Positions 117-39,467 of a stretch of 43,842 nt of DNA are shown here, in pieces. Position numbers and translations under genes: made by a program. Under the pieces are notes generated by a model, which had not been told where the DNA came from, made no database searches, and saw nothing but the letters and a program-made list of their open reading frames with translations. Origin of the DNA: an uncultured Bacilli bacterium (GTDB taxonomy: Bacteria; Bacillota_I; Bacilli_A; ML615J-28; CAG-313); the NCBI GenBank assembly GCA_944326155.1, contig CALVCV010000012.1, positions 1 through 43,842 on the forward strand, written 5' to 3'. Numbering within the stretch: the stretch's first letter is position 1; each line of letters begins with the position of its first letter.

Positions 117-192
117 GGAGGATTAGCTCAGCTGGGAGAGCATCTGCCTTACAAGCAGAGGGTCGGCGGTTCGAGCCCGTCATCCTCCACCA
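117..192 (+). tRNA. tRNA-Val (TAC)
   Basis: Cloverleaf with acceptor GGAGGAT/ATCCTCC, anticodon loop CTTACAA on a TCTGC/GCAGA stem, and encoded CCA. First tRNA of the cluster after 5S rRNA. Confidence 0.97.
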
Positions 193-196
193 TTGT

Positions 197-272
<76 letters not shown>

Positions 273-282
273 TCTAGTGAAT

Positions 283-358
283 GTCCTCGTAGCTCAGTTG
301 GCAGAGCAACTGACTTTTAATCAGTGGGTCGGACGTTCGAATCGTCTCGGGGACACCA
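283..358 (+). tRNA. tRNA-Lys (TTT)
   Basis: Acceptor GTCCTCG/CGGGGAC with one G-T pair, anticodon loop CTTTTAA, encoded CCA. Confidence 0.97.
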
Positions 359-379
359 TCTTTTATCACGTATAAACAT

Positions 380-466
380 GCCTGAGTGGCGGAATAGGTA
401 GACGCGCAGGACTTAAAATCCTGTGGTAGCAATACCGTGCCGGTTCGACCCCGGCCTTAGGCACCA
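380..466 (+). tRNA. tRNA-Leu (TAA)
   Basis: Class II tRNA with a long variable arm. Acceptor GCCTGAG/CTTAGGC, anticodon loop CTTAAAA on CAGGA/TCCTG, encoded CCA. Confidence 0.96.
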
Positions 467-478
467 AATTTTACACGT

Positions 479-554
479 GGGTCCATAGCTCAGCTGGGAG
501 AGCACCTGTTTTGCACGCAGGGGGTCGAGGGTTCGAGTCCCTTTGGATCCACCA
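479..554 (+). tRNA. tRNA-Ala (TGC)
   Basis: Acceptor GGGTCCA/TGGATCC, anticodon loop TTTGCAC on CCTGT/GCAGG, encoded CCA. The acceptor has G-T at pair 3-70, the alanine identity element. Confidence 0.96.
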
Positions 555-576
555 TTTTTATAATAGATGGTTCTGT

Positions 577-653
577 GGCGGTGTAGCTTAGTTGGCTATA
601 GCGTCCGGTTCATACCCGGAAGGTCGGGGGTTCAAGTCCCTCCGCCGCTACCA
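577..653 (+). tRNA. tRNA-Met elongator (CAT)
   Basis: Acceptor GGCGGTG/CGCCGCT, anticodon loop TTCATAC, encoded CCA. The sequence closely follows the B. subtilis elongator tRNA-Met. G4 and G5 in the acceptor separate it from the lysidine tRNA-Ile2 that follows. Confidence 0.93.
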
Positions 654-665
654 TTTTGAAAGTAT

Positions 666-742
666 GGACCTTTAGCTCAGTTGGTCAGAGCCCCCGGCTC
701 ATAACCGGTTGGTCCTAGGTTCGAGTCCTAGAAGGTCCACCA
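666..742 (+). tRNA. tRNA-Ile2 (CAT, lysidine-modified)
   Basis: The anticodon is CAT, but the body (acceptor GGACCTT/AAGGTCC with C4 and C5) matches B. subtilis tRNA-Ile2, whose wobble C is modified to lysidine by TilS. The slot Met-Ile-Ser-fMet-Asp-Phe is the same as in the B. subtilis trnB cluster. The first anticodon-stem pair (27-43) is a C-T mismatch. The Ile assignment is inferred from body similarity and order. Confidence 0.85.
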
Positions 743-769
743 TTCGATATATTATAATTAAAAAAATAC

Positions 770-860
770 GGAGAAATACCCAAGTCTGGCTGAAGGGATC
801 GGTCTTGAAAACCGACAGGGTGTAACAGCCGCGGGGGTTCGAATCCCTCTTTCTCCGCCA
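770..860 (+). tRNA. tRNA-Ser (TGA)
   Basis: Class II tRNA with a long variable arm, acceptor GGAGAAA/TTTCTCC, discriminator G, anticodon loop CTTGAAA, encoded CCA. Confidence 0.96.
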
Positions 861-870
861 TTTTTCTCAT

Positions 871-946
<76 letters not shown>

Positions 947-949
947 TAG

Positions 950-1025
950 GGTTCCATGGTGTAGAGGTTAACATGCCAGTCTGTCACACTGGAGATCGCG
1001 GGTTCAAGTCCCGTTGGAACCGCCA
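950..1025 (+). tRNA. tRNA-Asp (GTC)
   Basis: Acceptor GGTTCCA/TGGAACC, discriminator G, anticodon loop CTGTCAC on CCAGT/ACTGG, encoded CCA. Confidence 0.97.
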
Positions 1026-1032
1026 TTATTTT

Positions 1033-1108
1033 GGCTAGGTAGCTCAGTCGGTAGAGCAATGGACTGAAAATCCATGTGTCGCCGGTTCGATCCCGGCCCA
1101 AGCCACCA
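1033..1108 (+). tRNA. tRNA-Phe (GAA)
   Basis: Anticodon loop CTGAAAA on stem ATGGA/TCCAT, encoded CCA. The acceptor halves GGCTAGG and CCAAGCC pair at six of seven positions; the fifth pair is A-A. The rest of the cloverleaf looks normal, so the gene is probably functional. Last tRNA of the cluster. Confidence 0.94.
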
Positions 1109-1756: not shown

Positions 1757-2572
1757 TTATATAAACCCTTGTTCAGTTCTATATTGAATGGGGGTTTTAT
1801 ATTTTAATGAATAAGCTAATCTTTGCGTATTGAAATAATTAATGTAATCTTTTATTGCCACATTAATATCATCTGCTAAATATATCTTAAAATCTTTATA
1901 TAATTCATTCTTTATCCAACCATTTAAAGATTCAATGACTGGATTATCAGTAGGTGTTCCTGCTCGACTCATTGATCTTTTTATGGTATAATTATCTAGA
2001 AGCTTATTGAAGGCTTTTGAGGAATATACTGTGCCCTGATCTGTGTGGAAGATAGTTTCAAGGTCTTTATATCCTCTTTTTATTTTAGCTTCTAAAAAAT
2101 CTTTACACGCGCTAAAATGGTTTGGCACTCCTGCACCATGTTTTGAAGGGCTTACATCTGAACCAATGATTTCATTATTGTAAACATCTACATAAAAAGT
2201 CCAATCATAGCTTTTACCTCTACAGTGAATTATAGTTGTATCAGACACAACAATTTGAAAAGGTCTAGATGGATTAAAGTTTCCTCTTACTATATTTGGA
2301 TACGTTATACTTTCTTCACCTCTTGGAACATATGTTTTACGAGCTTTTGAGCGTATATTTAAACTTTTAGATACTTTATGGCATAAATTATCACTGAATA
2401 ACCATCCAGTTTTATTTCTAATATTTTGTGCTATAGCTCTATATCCATAAGTTGAATGATGCTTATGGATATTTTTTATTTCATCAGCCAGTGTTATTCT
2501 ATTCTTTTGATAGTTATTTATTGTTCCTTTACGGTTTAGCCATTTATAGTATCCGCTTCTTGAAACATCCAT
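1757..2572 (-). CDS. IS3-family transposase OrfB (DDE integrase domain)
   Basis: Catalytic half of the transposase. From the ATG used here it is 271 aa with a DDE triad at D111 (SDTT), D178 (HTDQG) and E214 (IESLN); D178 and E214 are separated by exactly 35 residues, as in the IS3 family. The open frame continues upstream without a stop to about 2690 (encoding EIVETL...LCIVMDVSRSGYYKW, the conserved OrfB N-terminus). The functional product is therefore probably an OrfAB fusion made by -1 frameshifting rather than this ATG-initiated form. The stop lies just inside the left inverted repeat. No disabling mutation is visible. Confidence 0.9.
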   Translation of the reverse strand: MDVSRSGYYKWLNRKGTINNYQKNRITLADEIKNIHKHHSTYGYRAIAQNIRNKTGWLFSDNLCHKVSKSLNIRSKARKTYVPRGEESITYPNIVRGNFNPSRPFQIVVSDTTIIHCRGKSYDWTFYVDVYNNEIIGSDVSPSKHGAGVPNHFSACKDFLEAKIKRGYKDLETIFHTDQGTVYSSKAFNKLLDNYTIKRSMSRAGTPTDNPVIESLNGWIKNELYKDFKIYLADDINVAIKDYINYFNTQRLAYSLKYKTPIQYRTEQGFI

Positions 2573-2619
2573 TACTATACAAAGTGATTTTATATTAAAC
2601 TCCCGAGAAAGAGTCTCTA

Positions 2620-2985
2620 CTATTTCGTATTCTTTTCTGATAATTTCTCTAGGGCTAAAAGAACATCCTCCTCGGAGTACCCTTTTTTTAATCGTTCATT
2701 CTCGATTCTAAGTAACATATTTTCATATTCAAGTTGTTCAATAGGTGTTAATTCTTTTCGCCTTGAATATTTAGCTAATGGATTACCAGGTTTACGCTTA
2801 TTTTCTAAAGCTTTTATTCCACCTTCATTATAACGTTTAACCCAATTACTAATCATCCCTTGAGATATTCCTAATTCATTCATTAATTGAGACATGCTTT
2901 TTTCACCAGCAAGTACCCTTTTTATAATGTTATATTTTTCTTCACTTGACCATTCTTTATTTTGACCACCTTTAGATCTTCCCAT
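2620..2985 (-). CDS. IS3-family transposase OrfA (helix-turn-helix)
   Basis: 121 aa DNA-binding half of the transposase. The helix-turn-helix lies around residues 15-55 (SMSQLMNELGISQGMISNWV), followed by a leucine-zipper-like helix near 80-100 (LEYENMLLRIENERLKK). An RBS (AAAGGAG) sits 8 bases before the ATG. The codons TTA AAA AAA GGG near residue 100 hold a seven-A slippery run, and the orfB frame is -1 relative to orfA there. OrfA would bind the element ends and, fused to OrfB, carry out transposition. Confidence 0.92.
   Translation of the reverse strand: MGRSKGGQNKEWSSEEKYNIIKRVLAGEKSMSQLMNELGISQGMISNWVKRYNEGGIKALENKRKPGNPLAKYSRRKELTPIEQLEYENMLLRIENERLKKGYSEEDVLLALEKLSEKNTK
2683..2689 (-). 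other. programmed -1 frameshift slippery site (A7)
   Basis: On the minus strand, seven A residues in the orfA frame (A AAA AAA, then GGG) form a classical heptamer. Shifting to -1 here gives an open frame straight into OrfB. A possible stimulatory hairpin (GGGTACTCC...GGAGG...AGCCC) follows directly. Confidence 0.75.
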
Positions 2986-3304: not shown

Positions 3305-3322
3305 TATAATATTAATGGGGTG
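3305..3322 (+). promoter_or_regulatory. -10 box and RBS for the 3328 operon
   Basis: TATAAT at 3305-3310 and GGGGTG at 3317-3322, six bases before the ATG. The short gap implies a very short leader. No good -35 box is visible. Confidence 0.55.
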
Positions 3323-3327
3323 ATAAA

Positions 3328-4440
3328 ATGTCTGTTTATGTGAATCATAAAGAATATGAATATATTGAGAATATCAGTATTTTTAATTTTATAAGACATC
3401 ATCAATTATTTTTACCATTTATGTCTGATAATGAGTTAGACGAATTATGTTATGTAGAAGTTATTGGTATGGATAATCTTGTTTCAGCTAAAACAACAAA
3501 TTTAGAAGATGGCATGCAAATTTTAACGCAAACCGAAAAAATATATACCTATTTAGAAACAGTTTTATCATATCCTAAAAGGGACATTACAAGTTTTATG
3601 CGTACAATGTCATTGGATGAAACAGCATATAATATTTTACTATGTGCTCCTGAATGTTATGAAAAATGTCTTGAAACTTATAAAGACAAAGGTTTTAATG
3701 ATATTATTAGTCTAAAACTTTTTCAAATGGTTAGATACTTAGAACTTACTCATGAATTCATGAAGAAAATAGCAAATAAATTAGATTATTTAAATTATAA
3801 TAAATTATTAGTTTTAGAGCCTTCTATTATAGAACCTCCTCTTAACATCACATCAAGTTTAAAACCTGCAGAAGAAATAGCCAGCATCTTACTTAAAACC
3901 TATTATAAACAAATATTAAAGGTAACAAATGATATTCATATTATATATGTAACAAATGATATAAAAGAATTTTTTTGTCAAGATACTAAAAGTAATTTAT
4001 ATTTGAGTATGATTGATGAAGTTGTGTTAGAAAATAATTTTGAAATTACAAACACAAATAGCCTATATGATGGAAAAATTACAAACGAAATATATAAAAA
4101 AAAGACAACTAATTTAACTATTAGCTGTGATTATTCTACAATTTTTAAGATTTTAAGAAAGATGGGTTTAAAAGAAGAATCTTTAGAGGTATTTGATAAA
4201 GATCAAGGAACATCATGTTTTGTAACTTATAAGGGACTTAGTTTAAAAATTTTATTTACAACTCATCTATTTACCAAAGAAGTTCTTGATACTTTAGACT
4301 ATGATTTGGTCGTAATTTGTTATCATGAATATCGGTTAAATGAAGAATATAATGAAATACTAACTGATTATAACTTAAATCACTTATATAAAAAACTATT
4401 AATTTTTCCAGGACATAGCGATATTTTTAGGAGAAAATAA
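3328..4440 (+). CDS. degenerate [FeFe]-hydrogenase-like protein without cluster cysteines
   Basis: 370 aa, not a family I can name, but it reads along its length like the HydA encoded at 35199 in the same window. Residues 3-72 resemble the N-terminal [2Fe-2S] domain (CYVEVIGMDNL here, CVVEIVGMRSL in HydA), but three of the four ligand cysteines are gone. The His-Cys and double [4Fe-4S] modules are absent. Residues 100-130 (YNILLCAPE...KGFNDI) match HydA YLVATFAPA...LGFDDI. Residues 177-193 (SLKPAEEIASILLKTYY) match HydA SCKSPQQMQGSMIKHYY. H-cluster positions TSCSPGW and MPCIAKK become LEPSIIE and VTNDIKE; only a VIC near residue 331 may retain one L3 cysteine. It cannot be a normal hydrogenase and may be a scaffold or regulatory pseudoenzyme. 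Its stop overlaps the next start by one base (TAATG), so the two are co-translated. Confidence 0.8.
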   Translation: MSVYVNHKEYEYIENISIFNFIRHHQLFLPFMSDNELDELCYVEVIGMDNLVSAKTTNLEDGMQILTQTEKIYTYLETVLSYPKRDITSFMRTMSLDETAYNILLCAPECYEKCLETYKDKGFNDIISLKLFQMVRYLELTHEFMKKIANKLDYLNYNKLLVLEPSIIEPPLNITSSLKPAEEIASILLKTYYKQILKVTNDIHIIYVTNDIKEFFCQDTKSNLYLSMIDEVVLENNFEITNTNSLYDGKITNEIYKKKTTNLTISCDYSTIFKILRKMGLKEESLEVFDKDQGTSCFVTYKGLSLKILFTTHLFTKEVLDTLDYDLVVICYHEYRLNEEYNEILTDYNLNHLYKKLLIFPGHSDIFRRK

Positions 4441-6356
4441 TGAATATTTCTAAAACGTTATTTAAAAATTTATCTAGATGTCATAATTTCATGGCGCTAT
4501 ATGATTTATATATAAATAGAAGTTTTCATGATATCAAAGCTATCAATACCAAGAAAAAAAGTACGGAGATTATGAAAGATATTTTTTTATTAAATAATAA
4601 TTTATTTGATAAAAAAAAGGAAAAAATCGAAGAACTACTTAGTGAAATGTTTGATGAAAATACTGGTGAAGACTTATTAAATTTAAAAAGTGATCAACTT
4701 GAGGCTTTTGCAAGTACTTTCACGGAGGTTGAAAGATTAGCAAGTTTATATATTGAACAAGTTTTTAAACAACCAGTTCTTGCTGCAGTAAACACATATG
4801 AACAAAAAAAATATGCTTATAAAGAAGAAGGCAATACTTTTTATTGCTACTTGGATTGTTATTTTGAAGATGAAAAAAATATTCAAATTTTCGAGGTTAA
4901 AGCAACTACATCCAAAAAGTTTGATGACTTTGGAATTACAATTAATAAAAAGCACTATGATTTTTTTACTTTTAATAATGGTATTATGGAGTATCAAGAT
5001 TTAACAACAAAGTTTACGGGAAAAGACCAAGAAAAAGTAAAACAAAAAGTTCAAACTTTACTAGATAAATTTTCTGATTGTGGTAAGTATATATATGATA
5101 TTAGTGTTGAAAGACATATTATTGAAAATAGTTTAAAAAAAGTTGGTGCTTTACATAAAAACATATCTTATTATTTGGTTGTTTTAAATGCCAATTATAC
5201 CTTTAGTGGTGTATATAAAGAAGGCGCACCTTGTTATGATATTGATAAAAATGGGGAGGCTTTGTTTAAAATTTATGATATGGATTTCCTTACTAGTGCA
5301 TATCAACCATTAATTGAAAATGAAAAAAAAGAAATAATTAAAAATAGTCAATTTTTGACGCTTGAAGATTCAATATTAGGTAAATGCTGCGAGTATAAAA
5401 AAACTACAGCTTGTAAATTTCACAAAATTTGTATGAAAGAAGTATTACAAGATGGTTCTATTTTAGAATATTTTAAAAAGCAATATGCGTTTAGCATCCC
5501 TACTATTTATCCTAAAAAAAGACAATATCTAGATGTATATGACTTAATCAATCAAGGATATCATAAAATTGATGATGTAAGGCCATATTTAACCAAAATG
5601 GATAATATCGTGCAATATGAGTGTTATGTTAATCAAAAAATATATATAGATCTTGTAAGAATAAACAAAGCCCTAGAAGGAATAAGTTATCCTATTTATT
5701 ATTTGGATTTTGAAAGTTATAATTCGCCATTACCTCGTTTTAAAGGAGAACACCCTTATACTCAGTCTTTATTCCAATATTCTTTGCATTTGGAAAAAGA
5801 ACCAAATATATGTGATTTGGTAAAAGATCATCATGAGTTTTTGGCTAAAGATCATTATGATCATCGTTTAGAGTTAATTGAACATTTAATACAAGATATT
5901 GATCTTACAAAAGGTGGATCGGTAATTGTATATAATAAATCTTTTGAAAAAACAAGATTAAAAGAATTAAGTTATATTTTTCCTCAATATAAAAAAGAAT
6001 TAGATGATATTAATAATCATATTTTTGATTTGTTAGAAGTATTAAAGGGCACAAAAAATCTAGATAAATTACCTAATCATCCGTCATTTACTTATTATAA
6101 TAATAAAATGCATGGATCTTTTTCAATAAAAAAAGTATTACCACTATTTAGTAATTTATCTTACAATGATTTAGAAGTCAAAAATGGTACAGAGGCCATT
6201 TTAGCCTATGGAATGTTACCCTACTATACAAAAAAAGAATATGAAGAAAAATATTTAGCATTAAGTTTCTACTGTAGACAAGATACTTGGGCAATGGTTG
6301 AAATTTTAAAAGGTTTAAGACAAATGATAGATAAAAAAATCAATCTAAATGATTGA
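4440..6356 (+). CDS. DUF2779 protein: Cas4/RecB-like nuclease plus DnaQ-like domain
   Basis: 638 aa. The N-terminal half looks like a PD-(D/E)xK nuclease: D139 followed by E152-V-K154 (FEVKATT). Cysteines at C14 and C316/C317, C325, C331 are laid out like the iron-sulfur cysteines bracketing Cas4 and AddB nuclease cores. The C-terminal ~220 residues match DUF2779 with a DnaQ-type exonuclease pattern: D423-F-E425 (YLDFES), an N499 region (IVYNKSFEKTRL), D530 and a final D615 (YCRQDTW). It probably acts on nucleic acid ends; the substrate is unknown. It is translationally coupled to the hydrogenase-like gene upstream. The pair is delimited by a promoter at 3305 and a terminator overlapping its stop. 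Confidence 0.85.
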   Translation: MNISKTLFKNLSRCHNFMALYDLYINRSFHDIKAINTKKKSTEIMKDIFLLNNNLFDKKKEKIEELLSEMFDENTGEDLLNLKSDQLEAFASTFTEVERLASLYIEQVFKQPVLAAVNTYEQKKYAYKEEGNTFYCYLDCYFEDEKNIQIFEVKATTSKKFDDFGITINKKHYDFFTFNNGIMEYQDLTTKFTGKDQEKVKQKVQTLLDKFSDCGKYIYDISVERHIIENSLKKVGALHKNISYYLVVLNANYTFSGVYKEGAPCYDIDKNGEALFKIYDMDFLTSAYQPLIENEKKEIIKNSQFLTLEDSILGKCCEYKKTTACKFHKICMKEVLQDGSILEYFKKQYAFSIPTIYPKKRQYLDVYDLINQGYHKIDDVRPYLTKMDNIVQYECYVNQKIYIDLVRINKALEGISYPIYYLDFESYNSPLPRFKGEHPYTQSLFQYSLHLEKEPNICDLVKDHHEFLAKDHYDHRLELIEHLIQDIDLTKGGSVIVYNKSFEKTRLKELSYIFPQYKKELDDINNHIFDLLEVLKGTKNLDKLPNHPSFTYYNNKMHGSFSIKKVLPLFSNLSYNDLEVKNGTEAILAYGMLPYYTKKEYEEKYLALSFYCRQDTWAMVEILKGLRQMIDKKINLND

Positions 6357-6503: not shown

Positions 6504-7814
6504 TTATTTTACTTTATTTTTAATTTTTGCATATAAATCATAACTATCTGTTTTAGTTATTTCAATATTAATTAAATCGCCAGGATGAATATCTTCTATC
6601 ATATTAGAATATATATATATATAACCGTCCACATCGTCTGGTGCATAAGCATAATTTCTTACACAATAATACTTTTTATTTCCATTATAACTATCTACTA
6701 TTGCAAGATAGGTTTTACCAATAAATTGTTTATTAATTACTTTTAAGAGTTGATTTTGAAAACGCATAATTTGATCACGTCTTTCATTCATTATTTCTTG
6801 AGGAATTTTAGGAAGCATCTTTTGGCTTGGTGTATCATCTTCATCTGAATATGTAAAGACACCTAAACGATTAAAACGTTGTTTTTTAACAAAATCTAGT
6901 AAAATATCAAAATCTTCATTGGTTTCTGATGGAAAGCCAACAATTAAAGTTGTTCTAATAATGACATGAGGAATTCTTTTTCTAATTGTTTCAAAAAGAC
7001 TTTCTAATTGGCTTTTTGTTGATCTTCTATTCATTTTTTTAAGGATTCTATCAGATGCATGTTGAATAGGAATATCAAAATATTTAGCAACTTTATCGTT
7101 ATTAGCAATTTCATCAATTAATTCGCTGGTAATTTCATCAGGATAAAGATATAACACACGGATAATTTTAATTTCATCAATTAAAGAAATTTGATGAATT
7201 AAGTCATGAAGACGGCGATGGTCTTTTTGATCAGTTCCAAATCGTGTGGTATCTTGACCAATAAGTGTAATCTCTTTTACCCCTTTTGAGGCTAAATTTT
7301 TTGCTTCGACAATCAAACTATCAAAATCACGACTTTTAAATGAACCTCTAATCAAAGGAATGGCGCAATAACTACAACGATTATTGCAACCATCAGAAAT
7401 TCTCAAATAAGCACTATGGGGTAAAGTTGTAATAACTCTATTTTGATAATCCATTTTATAGGATTTATTTGTCGCAAGAAGTCGTTTAAAAAGTTCATCA
7501 ATATGATTATAATCACGAATTGGAAAGTATATGTCAACTTCAGGGATACTTTCTTTTAAATCAGATAGATATCTTTCTACAAGACATCCCATTACAATCA
7601 CCGTTTTTCCTTTTTTGTTTTCGGTAACATCTAAAATAGTATCAATGGCTTCTTTTTTGGCACTTTCAATAAAACCACAAGTATTGATAACAATGATGTC
7701 TGCTGTTTTGATATTATTGGTAAGTTCTAAGTTATATTTTTGGGCAACGCCTAAAAAGAGTTCCGAATCAATTAGGTTTTTAGCACATCCTAGGGAAATC
7801 ATTCCAAGTTTCAT
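6504..7814 (-). CDS. rimO: ribosomal protein S12 methylthiotransferase RimO
   Basis: 436 aa radical-SAM enzyme that adds a methylthio group to an aspartate of ribosomal protein S12. The N-terminal UPF0004 domain has the auxiliary-cluster cysteines C10 (LGCAKN, with the RimO-type NLIDSE following), C46 (NTCGF) and C77 (MGCLVE). The radical SAM motif is C143-x3-C147-x2-C150 (GCNNRCSYC). A C-terminal TRAM domain is expected in the last ~65 residues. Length is normal for the family. The ATG follows an AGGAGA RBS. The GCAKNLIDSE signature favours RimO over MiaB or MtaB. It is divergent from pduL. Confidence 0.95.
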   Translation of the reverse strand: MKLGMISLGCAKNLIDSELFLGVAQKYNLELTNNIKTADIIVINTCGFIESAKKEAIDTILDVTENKKGKTVIVMGCLVERYLSDLKESIPEVDIYFPIRDYNHIDELFKRLLATNKSYKMDYQNRVITTLPHSAYLRISDGCNNRCSYCAIPLIRGSFKSRDFDSLIVEAKNLASKGVKEITLIGQDTTRFGTDQKDHRRLHDLIHQISLIDEIKIIRVLYLYPDEITSELIDEIANNDKVAKYFDIPIQHASDRILKKMNRRSTKSQLESLFETIRKRIPHVIIRTTLIVGFPSETNEDFDILLDFVKKQRFNRLGVFTYSDEDDTPSQKMLPKIPQEIMNERRDQIMRFQNQLLKVINKQFIGKTYLAIVDSYNGNKKYYCVRNYAYAPDDVDGYIYIYSNMIEDIHPGDLINIEITKTDSYDLYAKIKNKVK

Positions 7815-30054: not shown

Positions 30055-30083
30055 TTGTCAAAAGTAGCATGGTGTGTTATAAT
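30055..30083 (+). promoter_or_regulatory. promoter of the hydrogenase operon
   Basis: TTGTCA (30055-30060), 17-base spacer, TATAAT (30078-30083), 28 bases before hydC. The ~90 bases upstream contain several TTAG/CTAA half-sites, but I see no convincing Rex or Fnr palindrome. Confidence 0.82.
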
Positions 30084-30110
30084 AAATATGTTGATTTTAG
30101 GAGGTTAAAA

Positions 30111-30593
30111 ATGTCAGTTAAATTAGAAATGTCTGAGGATCAAATCAAATTATTAAAACAAAAGATTGCCGAACATAAACAAAAACCAGGTCCTTTAATG
30201 CCCACACTTCATGATGCACAAACCATTTTTGGTTGTATTCCTCTTGAAGTACAAAAAATTATTTCAGAAGAATTAGGTGAAAGTATTGCAAAAATCAATG
30301 GCGTAGTTACTTTCTATTCTAGATTTACGTTAGAACCTAAGGGAAAACATGTTATTGGTGTTTGTCTTGGTACTGCTTGTTATGTACGTGGGTCACAAGC
30401 TGTTATCGATGAATTTAAAAAATTATTAAACATAAAGTCTAATCAAACAACTGATGATGGACAATTTACATTACTTGAAACCAGATGTATAGGCGCTTGT
30501 GGTCTTGCACCCGTATTTACATTTGATGATGAAGTATATGGCACATCAACAGTTAAAACAGCAAGAGAAGTTTATAATAAGAATATAGGATAA
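30111..30593 (+). CDS. hydC: HydC/NuoE-like [2Fe-2S] subunit of NAD-linked [FeFe] hydrogenase
   Basis: 160 aa from the ATG at 30111, preceded by TAGGAGG. Thioredoxin-like ferredoxin with ligands C85-x4-C90 (CLGTAC) and C126-x3-C130 (CIGAC), after a helical N-terminal region (LMPTLHDAQTIFGCIP) typical of NuoE. It passes electrons between the HydB flavin and the rest of the complex. First gene of the operon that ends with hydA. Confidence 0.94.
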   Translation: MSVKLEMSEDQIKLLKQKIAEHKQKPGPLMPTLHDAQTIFGCIPLEVQKIISEELGESIAKINGVVTFYSRFTLEPKGKHVIGVCLGTACYVRGSQAVIDEFKKLLNIKSNQTTDDGQFTLLETRCIGACGLAPVFTFDDEVYGTSTVKTAREVYNKNIG

Positions 30594-30601
30594 TTCTTTT
30601 T

Positions 30602-30976
30602 ATGACAATTAATAAAATTGTTGAAGTAATTAGGGGTAAAGAATTGACTCCACCAATTAAACCTGCTAATTTTGAATTAAAATATGCATTTAGTGGTGAT
30701 TTAATGAGTGATGCTTTAATGGTACTACGAGAAGCGCCAGAAGGTTTTTGCGAAGCAGGAATCTTAATAACAGGAAATGTTACGATGCAAAGTATACGAA
30801 CAGCAGAAATGCTAGATTTTGCTGCAATTCTAATTACAAGAGGAAAAGTACCAACGAAACAAGTCCTAGATCAAGCCTATAATTCAGGTATTATTGTATT
30901 AGGTACAAATGATGTGTCATTTACTGTTTGTGGTAAATTATATAGTGCAGGAATCAAAGGACTAAGTGATTTATAA
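30602..30976 (+). CDS. DRTGG-domain protein 1
   Basis: 124 aa. Resembles DRTGG domains (AFSGDLMSDALMVL...GILITGNVTMQSIRTAEMLDFAAILITRGK.PTKQVLDQA...IIVLGTND.SFTVCGKLY), which occur as putative ligand-sensing modules. Paralogous to the gene at 31401. It ends at the A of the next start codon (1-base overlap). Confidence 0.8.
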   Translation: MTINKIVEVIRGKELTPPIKPANFELKYAFSGDLMSDALMVLREAPEGFCEAGILITGNVTMQSIRTAEMLDFAAILITRGKVPTKQVLDQAYNSGIIVLGTNDVSFTVCGKLYSAGIKGLSDL

Positions 30977-31392
30977 TGCAAGCAACAGGAAAATTTGTCA
31001 TTGAATCAATGGATTTAGATAATGCTGGTAACGCATCTAGCACCATTAAAAAAATGTTAACAGAAGCAGGTGTATCTAAAAGTATTATTAAAAGAGTATC
31101 GATAGCGATTTATGAAGCAGAAATAAATGTTGTTATTCATTCTTATGGAGGAACTTGTACATATTATATTGATGATGAAAAAATAAGAGTAGTTTTTGAA
31201 GATACAGGTCCAGGAATTGAAGATATTGAACAAGCATTAGAACCGGGTTTTTCTACTGCTAACAACCAAGCAATTACTTATGGCTTTGGGGCAGGCATGG
31301 GACTGATGAATATTAAAAATGCAAGTGATGAATTTGACATTACATCTTCACACTTGGGAACAACACTAGATATAAAAATATATTTTAATTAG
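30976..31392 (+). CDS. GHKL ATPase, RsbW/SpoIIAB-like
   Basis: 138 aa HATPase_c domain alone. N-box EAEINVVIHS, G1 box FEDTGPGIED, G2 box GFGAGMGLMNI. Resembles anti-sigma-factor serine kinases of the RsbW/SpoIIAB/RsbT type rather than sensor histidine kinases, as there is no dimerisation/phosphoacceptor domain. In this operon it may phosphorylate or remodel an accessory protein; no STAS partner is encoded in the window. Confidence 0.87.
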   Translation: MQATGKFVIESMDLDNAGNASSTIKKMLTEAGVSKSIIKRVSIAIYEAEINVVIHSYGGTCTYYIDDEKIRVVFEDTGPGIEDIEQALEPGFSTANNQAITYGFGAGMGLMNIKNASDEFDITSSHLGTTLDIKIYFN

Positions 31393-31400
31393 AGGAAAAT

Positions 31401-31724
31401 ATGCGAGTAATTGATATTTTAAATAAAATTGAGGGGAAGATTTTAACGAATGATCAATCTGATGTTTTTTTTGAAGGAATTTATGCTGGTGATTTGCTTA
31501 GCAATGTTATGTCACATGCAAGAGAAAACAATCTTCTTTTAACCATTATGTCAAATATGAATACGATTGCGGTGGCATGTTTATTAGATTTACCAATAAT
31601 TTTATTTGCTGAAGGAGTAATCCCAACTGATGAAATGATAGATAAAGCTAATGAAGAAAAGATTATGCTGATTAGTAGCAAATATAGTGTAGTGGATATT
31701 ATTCGCAAAATATATGGAATATGA
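31401..31724 (+). CDS. DRTGG-domain protein 2
   Basis: 107 aa, similar to the product of 30602 (shared AGDLLSNVM / SGDLMSDAL, and a P-T-DEMIDKA block), so probably a tandem-duplicated DRTGG module. The stop overlaps the PHP start by four bases (ATGA). RBS GAGGAAA. Confidence 0.78.
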   Translation: MRVIDILNKIEGKILTNDQSDVFFEGIYAGDLLSNVMSHARENNLLLTIMSNMNTIAVACLLDLPIILFAEGVIPTDEMIDKANEEKIMLISSKYSVVDIIRKIYGI

Positions 31725-32437
31725 AATATTATTATGATTTACATATTCACTCAGCTTTATCACCATGTGCTGATGTTTTAATGAGTCCCAATAATATTTT
31801 AAATATGGCCTCATTAAAAGGCCTCAATATTATTGCAATAACCGATCATAATTCTTGTTTGCAATTAGATGTTTTTGAAGAATTAAAAGATAGTTATGAT
31901 ATGTTAGTTATACCAGGTGTTGAAGTTGAAGTCAAAGAAAAATATCATGTGGTATGTTTGTTTAAAACCTTTAGTAAGGCTAAAATGTTTCAAAAAACAT
32001 TAGATTTTTACTTAGATAAAAAAATGCATGATGAAGTCATATATGGTGAGCAAAATTTGTTTGATGTTTTTGATGATGTTATAAGCAATTATCAAATTAG
32101 TTTAATGGGCTCATCTAATATTAGTCTACTTGACTTAAGAAAAATTATTACCGAATTAGATGGAATAATGATTCTTGCTCATATTGAAAAATATAAAGAC
32201 AATATATTTGAAAAAATGCAAACCATCTATTGTGATATTTTTGATACAATTGAAGTTAATTTTTCTTATGATATAACAAAAATACAGCCCCAATTAGATA
32301 AACTTTCTTATACCATTCTTAGAAATTCTGATGCACATCTAATTACTGACATCTTAGAGCCAGTAGAGACGATTGAGTTAGCAAATTTAGATATAGAAGC
32401 TTTATTTTCCAAGTTAAAGGAGAGAAAGCATGGTTGA
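31721..32437 (+). CDS. PHP-domain phosphoesterase
   Basis: 238 aa. PHP metal motifs: D6-L-H8-I-H10 (HIHSALSPCAD), ITDHNS, IPGVEVEV, ILAHIEK and the C-terminal NSDAH. These are the conserved ligands of the PHP trinuclear site, so it is probably an active phosphoesterase. The substrate could be a phosphoprotein or small phosphate. Overlaps the genes on both sides. Confidence 0.87.
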   Translation: MKYYYDLHIHSALSPCADVLMSPNNILNMASLKGLNIIAITDHNSCLQLDVFEELKDSYDMLVIPGVEVEVKEKYHVVCLFKTFSKAKMFQKTLDFYLDKKMHDEVIYGEQNLFDVFDDVISNYQISLMGSSNISLLDLRKIITELDGIMILAHIEKYKDNIFEKMQTIYCDIFDTIEVNFSYDITKIQPQLDKLSYTILRNSDAHLITDILEPVETIELANLDIEALFSKLKERKHG

Positions 32438-33392: not shown

Positions 33393-35186
33393 ATGTTATT
33401 ACGTGCACAAGTATTAGTATGTGGTGGGACAGGTTGCCTATCATCAAAATCTAAACAAATTAAAGAAGCTTTTGTTGAAAACATAAAAGCATTAGGACTT
33501 GATAATGAGATTCAAGTTATTCAAACAGGATGTTTTGGTCTATGTGAAAGAGGACCAATTGTTATTGTTTATCCTGATCAAACTTTCTATTCACATGTAG
33601 CAGTAGAAGATGTACCTAAAATTTGTTCAGAACATCTTTTAAAGGGTCGTATTTATGAACCTAAAGCCTATAAAGAAGCAACAGCAGATGAACTTGCAAA
33701 AATTAAATCTTTTGGTGAAGTTGGCTTTTATAACAAACAATTAAGAATTGCTCTTCGTAATTGTGGAGTAATTAATCCATTTGATATTAATGAAGCAATT
33801 GGTAAAAATGCTTATCAAGCTTTAGGAAAATGTTTAACTGAATATACTCCAGTAGAAGTTATAGATATTATTAAAAAATCTGGACTTCGTGGCCGTGGTG
33901 GTGGTGGTTTTCCAACAGGCTTAAAATGGGAACTTTGTGCTAAAAATCATGCTGATCAAAAATATGTAATTTGTAATGCCGATGAAGGCGATCCAGGCGC
34001 ATTTATGGATCGTTCTGTTTTAGAAGGCGATCCTCATAGTGTTATAGAAGCAATGGCTATTGCAGGATATGCAATTGGTGCTACAATGGGATATGTATAT
34101 ATTCGTGCTGAATATCCTGTTGCTGTTGAAAGACTTGAATTTGCCATTAAACAAGCAAGAGAATATGGTCTTCTAGGCAAAGATATTTTTGGTAGTGGTT
34201 TTGATTTTGATATTGATGTAAGACTTGGTGCTGGTGCCTTTGTTTGTGGTGAAGAGACAGCTCTTATTGCATCTATTGAAGGTGAACGCGGTATGCCAAG
34301 AAATAAACCGCCATTTCCTGCTCTTAAAGGACTTTGGGGTAAACCTACAATCATTAACAATGTTGAAACTTTAGCGAATGTTCCTGTCATTATTTTAAAT
34401 GGTTGGGAATGGTTCTCTTCAATTGGAACAGAAAAGTCAAAAGGAACCAAAGTATTTGCTCTCGGTGGTAAAATTAAGAATACTGGACTTGTTGAAATCC
34501 CAATGGGAACAACCCTTAGAGAAGTAATTTATGATATAGGTGGTGGATGTCCTAATGGTAAAGCCTTCAAAGCTGTTCAAACTGGTGGACCATCAGGTGG
34601 ATGCTTAACAGCTAAACATCTAGATACTCCTATTGATTATGATAACTTAACTGCCCTTGGCTCAATGATGGGTTCAGGTGGTATGATTGTAATGGATGAA
34701 AATAACTGTATGGTCGATGTTGCTCGTTTTTTCTTAGACTTTACTGTTGATGAATCTTGTGGTAAATGTACACCTTGTCGTGAAGGTACAAAGAGAATGC
34801 TTGAAATTTTAAATAAAATTATTCATGGTCAAGGTACTTTAGAAGATATTACTGCTCTTGAAGAACTTGCACATATGATTAAAGATTCATCACTTTGTGG
34901 TCTTGGTCAAAGTGCTCCTAACCCTGTTTTATCAACGCTTGCTAACTTTAGAGATGAATATATCGCTCACGTTGTTGACAAAAAATGTCCTGCTGGTGTT
35001 TGTAAAGCTTTGCTTACATATGTTGTGACTGATGCTTGTATTGGTTGTACAAAATGTAAGAGAAATTGTCCTGCAGATGCAATCACTGGTGAGGTTAGAC
35101 AAAAACATTATATTGATCCTACAAAATGTATTAAATGTGGTAGTTGTATTCAAGGTTGCCCTAAAGGTGCAATCATTGTTAAATAG
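33393..35186 (+). CDS. hydB: HydB/NuoF-like flavin subunit of NAD-linked [FeFe] hydrogenase
   Basis: 597 aa. N-terminal thioredoxin-like [2Fe-2S] domain (C10, C15, C47, C51). FMN/NADH-binding NuoF core with GLRGRGGGGFPTG (~165-178), NADEGDPGA and GAGAFVCGEETALI. SLBB region, then the [4Fe-4S] motif CGKCTPC (C456, C459, C462). C-terminal double [4Fe-4S] ferredoxin (CIGCTKCKRNCP from C549, and CIKCGSCIQGCP). It takes electrons from NADH and, in bifurcating enzymes, from ferredoxin, for H2 production by HydA. Length and domain order fit HydB of trimeric bifurcating hydrogenases. Confidence 0.96.
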   Translation: MLLRAQVLVCGGTGCLSSKSKQIKEAFVENIKALGLDNEIQVIQTGCFGLCERGPIVIVYPDQTFYSHVAVEDVPKICSEHLLKGRIYEPKAYKEATADELAKIKSFGEVGFYNKQLRIALRNCGVINPFDINEAIGKNAYQALGKCLTEYTPVEVIDIIKKSGLRGRGGGGFPTGLKWELCAKNHADQKYVICNADEGDPGAFMDRSVLEGDPHSVIEAMAIAGYAIGATMGYVYIRAEYPVAVERLEFAIKQAREYGLLGKDIFGSGFDFDIDVRLGAGAFVCGEETALIASIEGERGMPRNKPPFPALKGLWGKPTIINNVETLANVPVIILNGWEWFSSIGTEKSKGTKVFALGGKIKNTGLVEIPMGTTLREVIYDIGGGCPNGKAFKAVQTGGPSGGCLTAKHLDTPIDYDNLTALGSMMGSGGMIVMDENNCMVDVARFFLDFTVDESCGKCTPCREGTKRMLEILNKIIHGQGTLEDITALEELAHMIKDSSLCGLGQSAPNPVLSTLANFRDEYIAHVVDKKCPAGVCKALLTYVVTDACIGCTKCKRNCPADAITGEVRQKHYIDPTKCIKCGSCIQGCPKGAIIVK

Positions 35187-35198
35187 GAGGTCTTCTGC

Positions 35199-36995
35199 AT
35201 GGAAAATTTAGTAACAATTACAATAAATGATAAAACGATTCAAGTGCCATCTAACTACACGATTATGCAAGCAGCTGATTCGGTTGGTATTTTTATTCCC
35301 CGTCTTTGTTTCTTAAAAGATTTGAATGAGAATGCTTCTTGTCGTGTTTGTGTAGTTGAAATTGTTGGTATGCGTTCTCTTAAAAATTCATGTACAGTTG
35401 AAGTTGGTTCAATTCTTAATCGTGAAGGAACTGCTACTATCTGTACAAACTCTAAACGTGTACGAAATGCTGTTCATCATACATTGGAGTTGATTGCAGC
35501 AAGCCATCGCTTCGATTGTTGGAAATGTCCACGTGAACGAAATTGTGAACTTCTTACCCTTCTTAGAAGATATTCTATTGATAATAAAATAGCTGAATCT
35601 GGACATTTTGTTAAAAAACTTCCAATTTTAAATCAAAGTGATGCAATTGTTTTTGATTCAGCAAAATGTATTCTTTGTGGAAGATGTATTGCAGCATGCG
35701 AAAAATTAGCAGGCACAAGCGTTCTTAACTTTAATGAAAGAGGCTTTGTTACTTGCGTTGGTACAGCTTTAAATCATGATATTGAAGATTCAGGTTGCAT
35801 CTATTGTGGTAAATGTATTGGTGCATGTCCAACAGCTGCTATTCATGAAAAAGAACAAATTGATTTAGTAGAAGAAGAACTTGATAATCATGAAAATTAT
35901 CTTGTTGCAACTTTTGCTCCAGCTGTTCGTGCCGCAATTGGTGAAGAATTTGACAACCCAATTGGTACAAATTGTGAAGGTAAAATTTATGCATCTTTAA
36001 AAGCTCTTGGTTTTGATGATATTACTGATGTTAATTTTGGTGCTGATCTTACAATTATGGAAGAAGGAACTGAATTTGTACATCGACTAAAGAAAGCTTT
36101 GAATGGCGAAAAAACAGTTTTACCAATGATTACCAGTTGTTCACCTGGTTGGATTCGTTATATTGAACATTATTATCCCGAATATTTACCTAATCTTTCA
36201 AGTTGTAAATCGCCTCAACAAATGCAAGGATCAATGATTAAACACTATTACGCTTCTAAAATTGGTGTTGATCCTCATAAAATTAAAGTTGTATCTATTA
36301 TGCCTTGTATTGCTAAAAAATACGAAGCAAATCGTCCTGAAATGGAAAACGATGGCATAAGAGATATTGATTATGTATTAACAACTAGAGAATATGCTCG
36401 TCTTGTAAAACGATTTGGTATTGATTTTAATGCCCTTGAAGATTATATTCCTACAAGTCCACTTGCTAAATATACAGGTGCCGGTGTGATTTTTGGCGCA
36501 ACAGGAGGTGTAATGGAGGCAGCATTAAGAACTGTTTCTCATATTCTTGATCCAGAAAATGAAGATAAAATTGATTTTACAGTTGTACGAGGAGTTGAAA
36601 ATGGTATTAAAGAAGCAACGATTAAGATTGCTGGATTAGATGTAAATATCGCAGTTGCACATGGTAGTGTAAATTTACCTGAATTGTTCAAACGTATTAA
36701 AGAAGGTAAAAAACAATATCATTTTATTGAAGTAATGGCATGTACTGGTGGATGTATCAATGGTGGTGGTCAACCAATTGTGCCTGCTAAAATTCAAGAA
36801 TCTTGTGATGTAAGAGCTTTAAGAGCGCAAGTTTTATATCAAATTGACAAAGATACGCCATTACATAAATCACATGAAAATCCATCTATTATTGAAGCAT
36901 ATAAAGAATTCTTAGGTGAACCTAATAGTTCACTTGCACATAAGTTACTTCATACAACTTACTCTGCTAAAGAAAACTTTTCTAAATCCAAATAA
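35199..36995 (+). CDS. hydA: HydA, catalytic subunit of NAD-linked [FeFe] hydrogenase
   Basis: 598 aa. N-terminal [2Fe-2S] (C37, C48, C51, C65). His-Cys [4Fe-4S] with H103-x3-C107-x2-C110-x5-C116. Two [4Fe-4S] ferredoxin motifs (C157/160/163/167 and C200/203/206/210). H-cluster domain with L1 ITSCSPGW (C314), L2 MPCIAKKYE (C370) and L3 EVMACTGGCINGGGQP (C515, C519), then a ~70-residue tail with the small-subunit-like helices. Makes H2 at the H-cluster. L1 reads TSCSPGW where C. pasteurianum CpI has TSCCPGW. The maturases HydE, HydF and HydG are not in this window. RBS GGAGG. Confidence 0.97.
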   Translation: MENLVTITINDKTIQVPSNYTIMQAADSVGIFIPRLCFLKDLNENASCRVCVVEIVGMRSLKNSCTVEVGSILNREGTATICTNSKRVRNAVHHTLELIAASHRFDCWKCPRERNCELLTLLRRYSIDNKIAESGHFVKKLPILNQSDAIVFDSAKCILCGRCIAACEKLAGTSVLNFNERGFVTCVGTALNHDIEDSGCIYCGKCIGACPTAAIHEKEQIDLVEEELDNHENYLVATFAPAVRAAIGEEFDNPIGTNCEGKIYASLKALGFDDITDVNFGADLTIMEEGTEFVHRLKKALNGEKTVLPMITSCSPGWIRYIEHYYPEYLPNLSSCKSPQQMQGSMIKHYYASKIGVDPHKIKVVSIMPCIAKKYEANRPEMENDGIRDIDYVLTTREYARLVKRFGIDFNALEDYIPTSPLAKYTGAGVIFGATGGVMEAALRTVSHILDPENEDKIDFTVVRGVENGIKEATIKIAGLDVNIAVAHGSVNLPELFKRIKEGKKQYHFIEVMACTGGCINGGGQPIVPAKIQESCDVRALRAQVLYQIDKDTPLHKSHENPSIIEAYKEFLGEPNSSLAHKLLHTTYSAKENFSKSK

Positions 36996-37004
36996 TAAAT
37001 AAGA

Positions 37005-37044
37005 AAAAAGCCCTAAAAACAGCATTTTGTTTTTAGGGCTTTTA
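37005..37044. terminator. bidirectional terminator between hydA and the Crp-family gene
   Basis: AAAAGCCCTAAAAAC pairs with GTTTTTAGGGCTTTT around a short loop, with A and T tracts on both sides. It serves the converging hydA and Crp-family transcripts and overlaps the Crp-family stop codon. Confidence 0.92.
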
Positions 37045-37662
37045 AATACTTTGATTTAAAGTAAGATAAGTTTTTTGCTTTTCTTTTTCTTTTTTAATAA
37101 TATGCTTTTTTTCAAGAAAGGAAAGACTTCTTGAAACAGATGGCCTTGGTAAAGATAAAATTCTTGCTAAATTGCTAACTGATTCAATATAAATCTTTTT
37201 GGTATTTTTTTGCTTTTGTTCTAATTTTAGATAATAAATAATACGGTCTTCAATATTTTTGTGTTTAAAAAGTTTATTTTCTTGTTTAATATATAAGGCT
37301 TTTGTAGAAAGAAGTTCTAAGTAGGAAGCAAGAAACTGGTAGTTTGTTTTAAACAAATAAAAGAGATTTTCTTTACTAATATAACGAATGAGCGTTTTCT
37401 TTAAACATATACCATGACCCAAATATCGATTGTGTTTGGAAAACGCCAAAATATCCCCAAAATAAGCCTCATTTTGCAAAATAGTAATAGTTTCTTCTTT
37501 TTCTGTATAAGTTAATTCAATTACATCAATTTGACCATATATTACCATTCCTACTACATCACAAATCTGTTCTTCGTTAAAAACAACATCTTTTGCTTTA
37601 TAAGATTTAAGATAAGTATAAGTATTTAATTCATCATTTGTTAAATTATCAAATATATTCAT
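37042..37662 (-). CDS. Crp/Fnr-family transcriptional regulator
   Basis: 206 aa. Cyclic-nucleotide-binding-like beta barrel (~10-120) and a C-terminal helix-turn-helix (~158-195: VSNLARILSLPRPSVSRSLSFLEKKHIIKK). It lacks the N-terminal cysteine cluster of Fnr; Cys at ~28 and ~106 are the only ones I see, so an oxygen-sensing iron-sulfur site is unlikely. It is divergent from the solute-binding lipoprotein gene with a palindrome between them, and convergent with the hydrogenase operon. It could control either; effector unknown. Confidence 0.9.
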   Translation of the reverse strand: MNIFDNLTNDELNTYTYLKSYKAKDVVFNEEQICDVVGMVIYGQIDVIELTYTEKEETITILQNEAYFGDILAFSKHNRYLGHGICLKKTLIRYISKENLFYLFKTNYQFLASYLELLSTKALYIKQENKLFKHKNIEDRIIYYLKLEQKQKNTKKIYIESVSNLARILSLPRPSVSRSLSFLEKKHIIKKEKEKQKTYLTLNQSI

Positions 37663-37685
37663 AAATTTAGTTTCCCTTTTTGGTT

Positions 37686-37711
37686 ATATTGTAACAAATG
37701 TTACACAATAT
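37686..37711. promoter_or_regulatory. palindromic operator in the divergent Crp-family/transporter promoter
   Basis: TGTAAC (37690-37695), AAAT spacer, GTTACA (37700-37705). The outer bases ATATTGT and ACAATAT add a second, offset symmetry. The form resembles Crp/Fnr/HcpR-type sites. A TATAAT for the plus-strand gene lies at 37727-37732, putting the palindrome centre about 41-42 bases before the expected start site. Confidence 0.7.
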
Positions 37712-37783
37712 AATTGTAGCATATGATATAATATTTTAGCAAATAATAAACAATATAAAATTACACAAAAATTAGGAGGTTTT

Positions 37784-38716
37784 ATGAAAAAAAATTTTAA
37801 ATTGATATATATATTTATCATCCTTTTATTTACACTTGCAATTACAGGATGTGTAGATGATTCTAGCAAAAAAGTTTCTATCATTGTCCCTACTGGTACA
37901 CCTTCACTTGGTGTTGCCAGTGCGATTAATAATTCTAGTATTGTAGAGGTAAATATTGTAAGTGGTTCTGATCCACTAGTTGCAGCATTCACAAATGGTA
38001 GTTATGATATTGTTGTTGCACCAGTCAATCTTGGTGCAAAATTATATAATGCCAATGCAAATTTTGAATATGTATTATATAAAACTATTGTTTGGGGTAA
38101 CTATTATTTAGTTGCAAATGAAGAAATTTTAAGTATCGAAAGTCTTGATGGTAAAAAGGTATTAGTTTTTGGTAAAAATTCAACACCTGATGTTGTTTTA
38201 CAAACATTAGCAATTGCCAAAGGAATAGATGTTGAATTTGAATATGTTAATGACGTTTCAACTGCTAACTCATATCTATTAACTGGTAAAGCTGATATCA
38301 TAGTCAGTGCAGAACCATCACTTACTAAAATTAGTTCGAATAAGAGTTTTTATACTTTTGATTTACAACAAGCATGGAAAGATTTAACAGGTAGTTATTC
38401 TTTACCACAAGCTGGTATTTTTGTTAAAAAATCCCTAAAGAATAATCAAGCAGTTTTAAATGTTTTAAATAAAATGAAACAATCAGTTGATATGGCAACT
38501 ACTAATCCAAATGAATTAGTAAAAGATGCGGTAAGTGTAGATAGTAATCTTGCAACAATTGGTCAAGATACTTTAGAAAAAGCAATTGGAAATTGTAATT
38601 TACGTGTTGAAGAAAATGATCAAGAAGCAATTGAATTTTATTTTAAAAAAGTAATTGCTTTAGGAATTGGTGTTACTGTAGGAGGAAAACTTCCTGATGA
38701 GGCATTCTATTACTAA
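37784..38716 (+). CDS. ABC transporter substrate-binding lipoprotein (TauA/NMT1-like)
   Basis: 310 aa. Signal peptide with lipobox ITGC (C23), then a two-lobed binding protein of the sulfonate/nitrate/thiamine-precursor class: VSIIVPTGTPSLGVA, GSYDIVVAPVNLGAKLY, VWGNYYLVA, SLDGKKVLVFGKNSTPD and GKADIIVSAEPSLT. The ligand is not evident. RBS AGGAGG. The permease start lies inside its 3' end (20-base overlap). Confidence 0.9.
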   Translation: MKKNFKLIYIFIILLFTLAITGCVDDSSKKVSIIVPTGTPSLGVASAINNSSIVEVNIVSGSDPLVAAFTNGSYDIVVAPVNLGAKLYNANANFEYVLYKTIVWGNYYLVANEEILSIESLDGKKVLVFGKNSTPDVVLQTLAIAKGIDVEFEYVNDVSTANSYLLTGKADIIVSAEPSLTKISSNKSFYTFDLQQAWKDLTGSYSLPQAGIFVKKSLKNNQAVLNVLNKMKQSVDMATTNPNELVKDAVSVDSNLATIGQDTLEKAIGNCNLRVEENDQEAIEFYFKKVIALGIGVTVGGKLPDEAFYY

Positions 38717-39467
38717 AAAAAGGATTTTGTCAAGCTCGCTTTTTGTTAGTTCTTTTTTAGTAATTGTATTTTTTTGGATGATACTTGCAATTATTTATGA
38801 CAACGATTTGATTTTTCCTAATATTAATCAAATTGCAATAGCATTCATCCATATTTTTAAGGAAATAGACAATATCATTGCATTACTTTTAACGATTAGT
38901 AGAGTAATCATTTCTGTTATGATTTCATTTCTATTAGGATTTTTTGTTCTTATCATATATATTCTTTTTCCTTCAAGTATGGCCTTTTTTAATCCTATCA
39001 TTCAAATTATGCGTAGTACACCGCTTGCAGTATTATCAATTTTTATCTTTATTATTATTGGTGATAAAATAGGACCTTATGTCATTACAGTCTTAATGAC
39101 TTTCCCTGTCGTGATTGAAGGGCTTTTGACCGCAACAAAACAAATCAATAAGGATGTTATGGATGAGGTAAAAACATTGCAAGGAAGTAGTTTAAAAAAA
39201 ATAGTATATATATATATTCCTATTATATTTCCATATATTATGATGACGTTAATTCAAAGTTTGGGTATGAGTTTTAAGGTCATGATTATGGGTGAATATA
39301 TTTGTCAAACAGACGATAGCATAGGTAAAATTTTGTATGGCGTGAAGTCAAATATTGAAATGGATAGTCTAATTGCTTATGGAATCCTAATAGTTATTAT
39401 TGTAGTAGTTTTAGAATTATTTATTCAAATGATTAAGAAACACTTATTAAGAAATGTCTTATCTTAA
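38697..39467 (+). CDS. ABC transporter permease (SsuC/TauC-like)
   Basis: 256 aa with about six membrane segments. The EAA-type loop (EVKTLQGSSLKKIVYIYIPIIFP) is at ~165-190. Partner of the binding protein at 37784. No ATPase gene is adjacent, so the energy-coupling subunit must be elsewhere. The RBS GGAGGA lies within the upstream gene. Confidence 0.9.
   Translation: MRHSITKKRILSSSLFVSSFLVIVFFWMILAIIYDNDLIFPNINQIAIAFIHIFKEIDNIIALLLTISRVIISVMISFLLGFFVLIIYILFPSSMAFFNPIIQIMRSTPLAVLSIFIFIIIGDKIGPYVITVLMTFPVVIEGLLTATKQINKDVMDEVKTLQGSSLKKIVYIYIPIIFPYIMMTLIQSLGMSFKVMIMGEYICQTDDSIGKILYGVKSNIEMDSLIAYGILIVIIVVVLELFIQMIKKHLLRNVLS

Follow-up and report, generated by a model that had tools for sequence, protein, structure and literature searches.

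What is left of a [FeFe]-hydrogenase when the residues that hold its metals are gone, and what might such a protein still be kept for? The question is raised by a gene at positions 3328–4440 on the forward strand of a 43,842-nucleotide stretch of DNA (the window), which is contig C12 of the 1.44-Mb genome G000; the host genus is referred to as g1. The gene encodes a 370-residue protein (P0001), which a first-pass annotation, made from the sequence alone, described as a cluster-less relative of the hydrogenase subunit HydA encoded in the same window.

The P0001 frame is intact and starts with ATG. A Shine–Dalgarno-like sequence (GGGGTG; 3317–3322, forward strand) lies 5 nt before the start codon, in agreement with the ribosome-binding site claimed for the gene; the promoter of its own that had also been claimed was not recovered, because a promoter scan gave no excess over shuffled sequence (31 versus 35.1 expected). 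The N-terminal 80 residues (3328–3567, forward strand) are a remnant of the [2Fe–2S] (β-grasp) domain of the HydA N terminus, in which C41 is the sole survivor of the four cluster cysteines. Residues 101–210 (3628–3957, forward strand) correspond, by hhalign and alignment, to the start of the H-domain, its first Rossmann-like half, in which the L1 loop is deleted and the L2 cysteine is replaced; a profile of residues 113–211 (A2) matches HydA H-domains. Residues 349–363 (4372–4416, forward strand) form a small-subunit-like C-terminal tail, NLNHLYKKLLIFPGH, recognized with a tail profile. P0001 alone has no Pfam match above threshold and only sub-threshold ones, such as Fer2_4 for the N-terminal domain (E = 0.0029); residues 5–80 also match, again below threshold, the NCBIfam NADH-dependent [FeFe]-hydrogenase family FeFe_hydrog_A6 (E = 5.6e-5).

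Orthologues of P0001 were found in eight genomes from three genera (g1, g6 and g2) of one Anaeroplasma-like family, the genomes compared being mostly MAGs. All five g1 genomes carry an orthologue, with 32–38% identity to P0001; g6 has one homologue of 406 residues (L056/L070, 1315–2535), and g2 has two, of 319 residues (G005, L069:1400–2359) and 315 residues (G013, L111:3284–4231). No orthologue was found outside this family in a class sample of 395 genomes or a phylum sample of 392 genomes. Short frames among the class-wide matches (for example, G141:C16) were set aside, by position and length alone, as probably being either single-domain proteins or HydA genes truncated where a contig ends.

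The HydA with which P0001 was compared (35199–36995, forward strand) is an intact group A protein of 598 residues, which scores over the TIGR02512 cut-off, matches NF040763 and has the motifs TSCSPGW (L1), MPCIAKK (L2) and ACTGGC (L3), the L1 motif being identical to that of Acetobacterium woodii HydA1. BLASTP of the two single proteins gave two weak segments in the same order (E = 0.001 and 0.057). In hhalign, a profile of the five g1 orthologues was collinear with the HydA profile over residues 2–208 (E = 4.3e-9 and 7.4e-10), and the controls were clean (reversed profile, E = 0.64; 30 column shuffles, E of at least 0.064; unrelated DUF2779 profile, E = 0.5). Run blind over whole genomes, the g1 profile recovered HydA genes of the order as two separate, correctly ordered pieces. 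Thus, the in-order resemblance to HydA noticed in the first-pass annotation is real. It also extends beyond that reading, as the motif N-x2-[IL/V]-Y-[KR]-x2-L-x2-P of the hydrogenase small-subunit tail is kept at the C terminus of the P0001 family. The tail profile matches the HydA tail with E = 2.1e-4 (score 24.5; the highest of 100 shuffles reached 17.5), and the tail holds four of the five columns that are invariant in all eight members; taken alone, the part of the C-terminal half that links the H-domain core to the tail gives no significant match (E = 0.065–0.13).

The g6 homologue passes the Pfam Fe_hyd_lg_C cut-off (PF02906; 29.1 versus 22.1 bits, E = 9.8e-7) and matches NF040762, ‘ferredoxin hydrogenase’ (E = 5.1e-10), as well as models of the hydrogenase N terminus, and P0001 itself is placed in the [FeFe]-hydrogenase superfamily by profile and orthology. 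Against the PDB, the family profile found CpI at E of about 3e-9, with weak matches to the alpha subunit of Thermotoga maritima and to HydA1 of Thermoanaerobacter kivui; a phmmer search of the same database with P0001 returned only designed PPR proteins, which are repeat-driven matches and were rejected as low complexity. In a phylogeny, the P0001-family proteins lie on very long branches and the tree did not resolve their placement among HydAs, so profile scores were used in its stead. The best HydA matches of the family are genes of the type found in a sister family, f2 (up to 66 bits), and the HydAs of the g2/g4-type clade and of G056 score 12–23 bits.

A first AlphaFold model, of P0001 with five sequences, was poor (pLDDT 46), and its Foldseek matches, the top three of which were hydrogenases, were taken as a hint only. 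The model of the g6 homologue, built from eight family members without templates, had a pLDDT of 65, with values around 85 for the β-grasp and H-domain core. In a Foldseek search of the PDB, it matched CpI (E = 2.5e-15, probability 1.00, about 580 columns), and the best 50 PDB matches, among those listed, were all [FeFe]-hydrogenases. The overall TM-scores to hydrogenases were only 0.42–0.48 with a large rmsd, so the relative placement of the domains in this model is untrustworthy. The first-pass annotation had held that a predicted fold unlike hydrogenases, or a confident match to an unrelated family, would tell against it; the g6 model revealed hydrogenase similarity and no unrelated family.

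The alignment and a ligand table bear out the absence of cluster modules and the replacement of the L1 and L2 cysteines reported for P0001, and revealed that the L3 cysteine is gone too. P0001 lacks both the NADH-G-type Fe–S module and the 2×[4Fe–4S] module, and neither H-cluster ligands nor accessory electron-transfer clusters remain in it. None of the eight members has a cysteine at any H-cluster ligand position: L1 is deleted in g1 and replaced by Asp in the g6 and g2 members, and none of the eight has retained L3. Judged by its sequence, P0001 cannot be a hydrogenase, since every H-cluster ligand is lost, and we regard its descent from HydA with loss of catalysis as highly likely. The Fe–S modules are lost in the g1 and g6 forms; both g2 members lack the [2Fe–2S] domain and retain a complete 2×[4Fe–4S] ferredoxin module, with eight cluster cysteines, which precedes the same decayed H-domain. 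The H-part of g2 matches the g1 profile at E = 2.4e-10; its direct match to HydA is not significant (E = 0.09). Thus, different lineages retained different parts of one ancestor, and the cluster-less type proposed for P0001 holds for this protein but not as a family-wide trait.

The genomic position of the gene points to the same ancestor. In five f2 genomes, single contigs carry, in this order, tRNA genes, hydCBA, ABC-transporter genes and DUF2779; the full 11-tRNA cluster is present in G022, G024 and G033, and one or two such tRNAs lie at the contig edge in G018 and G016. In g1, g2 and g6, the P0001-family gene sits between the tRNA cluster and DUF2779, as hydCBA does in f2, and a working hydABC is located elsewhere; G003 has no tRNAs upstream and G004 has an altered tRNA set. 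In the window, this ancestral hyd slot is marked by the 11-tRNA cluster (Val-Thr-Lys-Leu-Ala-Met-Met-Ser-Met-Asp-Phe; 117–1108, forward strand), with IS3-type transposase genes (rve and HTH; 1757–2985, reverse strand) inserted between it and the P0001 gene in G000. A conserved neighbour, a rimO-like radical SAM gene (UPF0004, Radical_SAM and TRAM_2; 6504–7814, reverse strand), is convergent with the DUF2779 gene. The slot accordingly holds a series comprising full HydA, a form with only the ferredoxin module and forms without a cluster module, and the best reading of the P0001 gene is a hydA paralogue left in the ancestral hydCBA slot.

The DUF2779 gene (4440–6356, forward strand; 638 residues; PF11074, E = 4.1e-39) overlaps the P0001 gene by 1 nt. 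DUF2779 proteins combine a DEDD-type exonuclease domain with a PD-(D/E)XK-like domain (PMC3985635), and the neighbour is probably such a PD-(D/E)XK and DEDD-type exonuclease; it has no PDB relatives by sequence. Its four cysteines (14, 317, 325 and 331) are conserved in 30–31 of 31 sequences, a pattern suggestive of a Cas4/AddB-type [4Fe–4S] site. A search with PADLOC for anti-phage defence matched neither P0001 and two of its homologues nor the DUF2779 protein. The family gene overlaps the DUF2779 start by 1–4 nt in all five g1 genomes and is separated from it by 0–2 nt in both g2 genomes with the gene, so that the two overlap or abut in seven of eight genomes. In G010 and G014, which also belong to g2, the tRNA cluster comes immediately after rimO, and the P0001-family gene and DUF2779 are both missing, whereas hydA is present. 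Both the tight spacing and this joint absence point to the nuclease, not HydA, as the partner, and tell against the role of regulator or scaffold for HydA that had been suggested.

The likeliest role of P0001 is therefore that of a non-catalytic partner of the DUF2779 protein, a putative Fe–S exonuclease; we rate this role as a serious candidate at somewhat under even chances, because the adjacency may be a legacy of the old hyd–DUF2779 neighbourhood. Moreover, a single deletion could have removed both genes from G010 and G014, two ABC-transporter genes separate the pair in g6, a lipoprotein gene occupies the same slot in g3 (just as tightly in G006), and most of the host's order has DUF2779 without a P0001-family gene. 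The protein has retained the HydA chain fold, namely the N-terminal β-grasp domain, a shortened H-domain and the small-subunit tail; all H-cluster ligands have been shed, as have, in g1 and g6, all electron-transfer modules. In the proposed mechanism, it would be made by translation coupled to the DUF2779 gene and would use the conserved hydrogenase scaffold and the C-terminal tail to bind the DUF2779 protein, and it may stabilize the nuclease, help to load its [4Fe–4S] cluster or control its activity. We infer both the physical partnership and its purpose. A narrower version, by analogy, is that a stripped hydrogenase was recruited to serve an Fe–S exonuclease, either as its dedicated subunit or as a chaperone for its maturation, much as Nar1 does for nucleic-acid enzymes but in bacteria and with no clusters itself; this we put forward tentatively. 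The whole explanation that we prefer, a hydA paralogue turned non-catalytic DUF2779 partner, we judge to be evenly balanced.

A role with HydA is less likely than one with DUF2779, and we consider it unlikely that P0001 is a non-catalytic regulator or dummy subunit of HydABC that competes or pairs with HydA, for example by limiting assembly on HydB (NuoF-like; 33393–35186, forward strand). P0001 is a HydA paralogue, and in four of the five g1 genomes its gene lies on one contig with hydA, some 30–41 kb away. The co-occurrence proposed as a check holds in one direction, all eight genomes with the family also having hydA, but not in the other, as hydA persists without the family gene in g3, g4, G010 and G014. 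Furthermore, the gene shares no operon with hydABC, and the loss of the N-terminal [2Fe–2S] domain in g2 differs from that of the Fe–S modules in g1 and g6, so that no common HydB-facing part is retained. It is likewise improbable that the emptied H-domain cavity is re-used for another ligand or metal, perhaps through C106-x7-C114 in g1, to give a redox or ligand sensor. All five g1 orthologues have both C106 and C114, the g2 members retain two [4Fe–4S] motifs, and Nar1, according to a proposal in PMC12621388, shows that an H-cavity may hold a different cluster; however, no cysteine is common to the eight members of g1, g6 and g2, which argues against a family-wide mechanism.

That the gene is a relic in slow decay without function would fit its fast evolution (33–40% identity between species whose HydAs are 83–85% identical), the progressive and lineage-specific loss of modules, and its absence from sister genera. 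Against this, all eight genomes have an open frame, at 15–40% identity, the fold-defining positions and the tail are conserved, as are synteny and the tight spacing to the next gene, and the closest pair (G001 and G002) has pS of 0.51 and pN of 0.14. The dN/dS of 0.18 for this pair, approximate because dS is high, compares with 0.05 for HydA and 0.10 for DUF2779. These observations show purifying selection, uphold the earlier view of an intact gene rather than a pseudogene and leave decay very improbable. As judged from sequence, P0001 would qualify as a pseudoenzyme: an intact, selected gene with a homologous fold and lost catalytic residues. Chance resemblance, or membership in an unrelated Rossmann-type family, could appeal to the weakness of single-sequence similarity and to the sub-threshold Pfam matches, but the profile searches, fold matches and synteny all contradict it, and after its refutation by fold and profile we give it next to no weight.

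Comparison with known systems sets P0001 apart from each of them. It shares with HydA of HydABC and group A enzymes (CpI and A. woodii HydA1) the domain order, the H-domain fold, the small-subunit tail and the ancestral gene position; unlike HydA, the P0001 family is without H-cluster ligands and has lost [2Fe–2S] cysteines (P0001 keeps one of four), with the Fe–S modules deleted in g1 and g6 and only the ferredoxin module left in g2. The first-pass annotation had stated that known non-hydrogenase relatives retain their clusters, which is the case for Nar1 (PMC12621388) and HydS (PMC13104023). Nar1/NARFL/CIAO3 is [FeFe]-hydrogenase-like without hydrogenase activity, and its link to Fe–S nucleic-acid proteins offers a functional analogy only: Nar1 is eukaryotic and has two [4Fe–4S] binding sites, whereas the cysteine table of P0001 contains none, and there is no sign of direct descent. 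Putative sensory [FeFe]-hydrogenases of group C/D (HydS-type) are likewise HydA relatives in a non-classical role; HydS has the H-cluster and accessory clusters, of which P0001 has neither, and it also lacks their combination of H-cluster ligands with a PAS or other signalling domain. The N-terminal β-grasp domain is of the same kind as that of NuoG/HoxU, but P0001 continues into an H-domain remnant rather than the molybdopterin-type domain of NuoG. Searches of open-access literature revealed no cluster-less hydrogenase paralogue.

The hyd operon of the window includes a NuoE/HoxE-like subunit (30069–30593, forward strand). In the order, genes for an anti-sigma/RsbW-like kinase (30976–31392) and a PHP-type hydrolase (31721–32437) lie between the NuoE-like and NuoF-like subunits, and genes for an ArsR-like regulator, an SsuA-like binding protein and a permease (37042–39467) accompany hydA across much of it. 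Elsewhere in the genome (G000:C8:38025–42152), two more [FeFe]-hydrogenase-like frames of 561 and 498 residues, perhaps of sensory types, lie about 3 kb apart, and such frames also occur in G001 and G002. HydABC with intact H-cluster motifs is present in the host's order, but HydG (TIGR03955) was found in none of 43 genomes of the order, and HydF gave no match over cut-off in 15 genomes of the host's family; each search gave a match over cut-off in exactly one control genome. Either H-cluster maturation differs in this order, or HydABC functions in the absence of the [2Fe] centre.

The apparent order-wide absence of HydG raises the question of whether HydABC works there without a normal H-cluster, a possibility that may explain why the H-domain could decay. 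P0001 also gives a first handle on the DUF2779 nucleases, which are widespread in the host's order and uncharacterized. The forms found in one slot provide an intermediate series that leads from a very metal-rich enzyme to a metal-free protein still under selection. With its gene intact beside that of a DNA-cutting enzyme, P0001 probably has a new job: in these wall-less gut bacteria, a hydrogenase-derived protein has kept its shape, lost the metal sites of its active centre and probably taken on a non-catalytic role.
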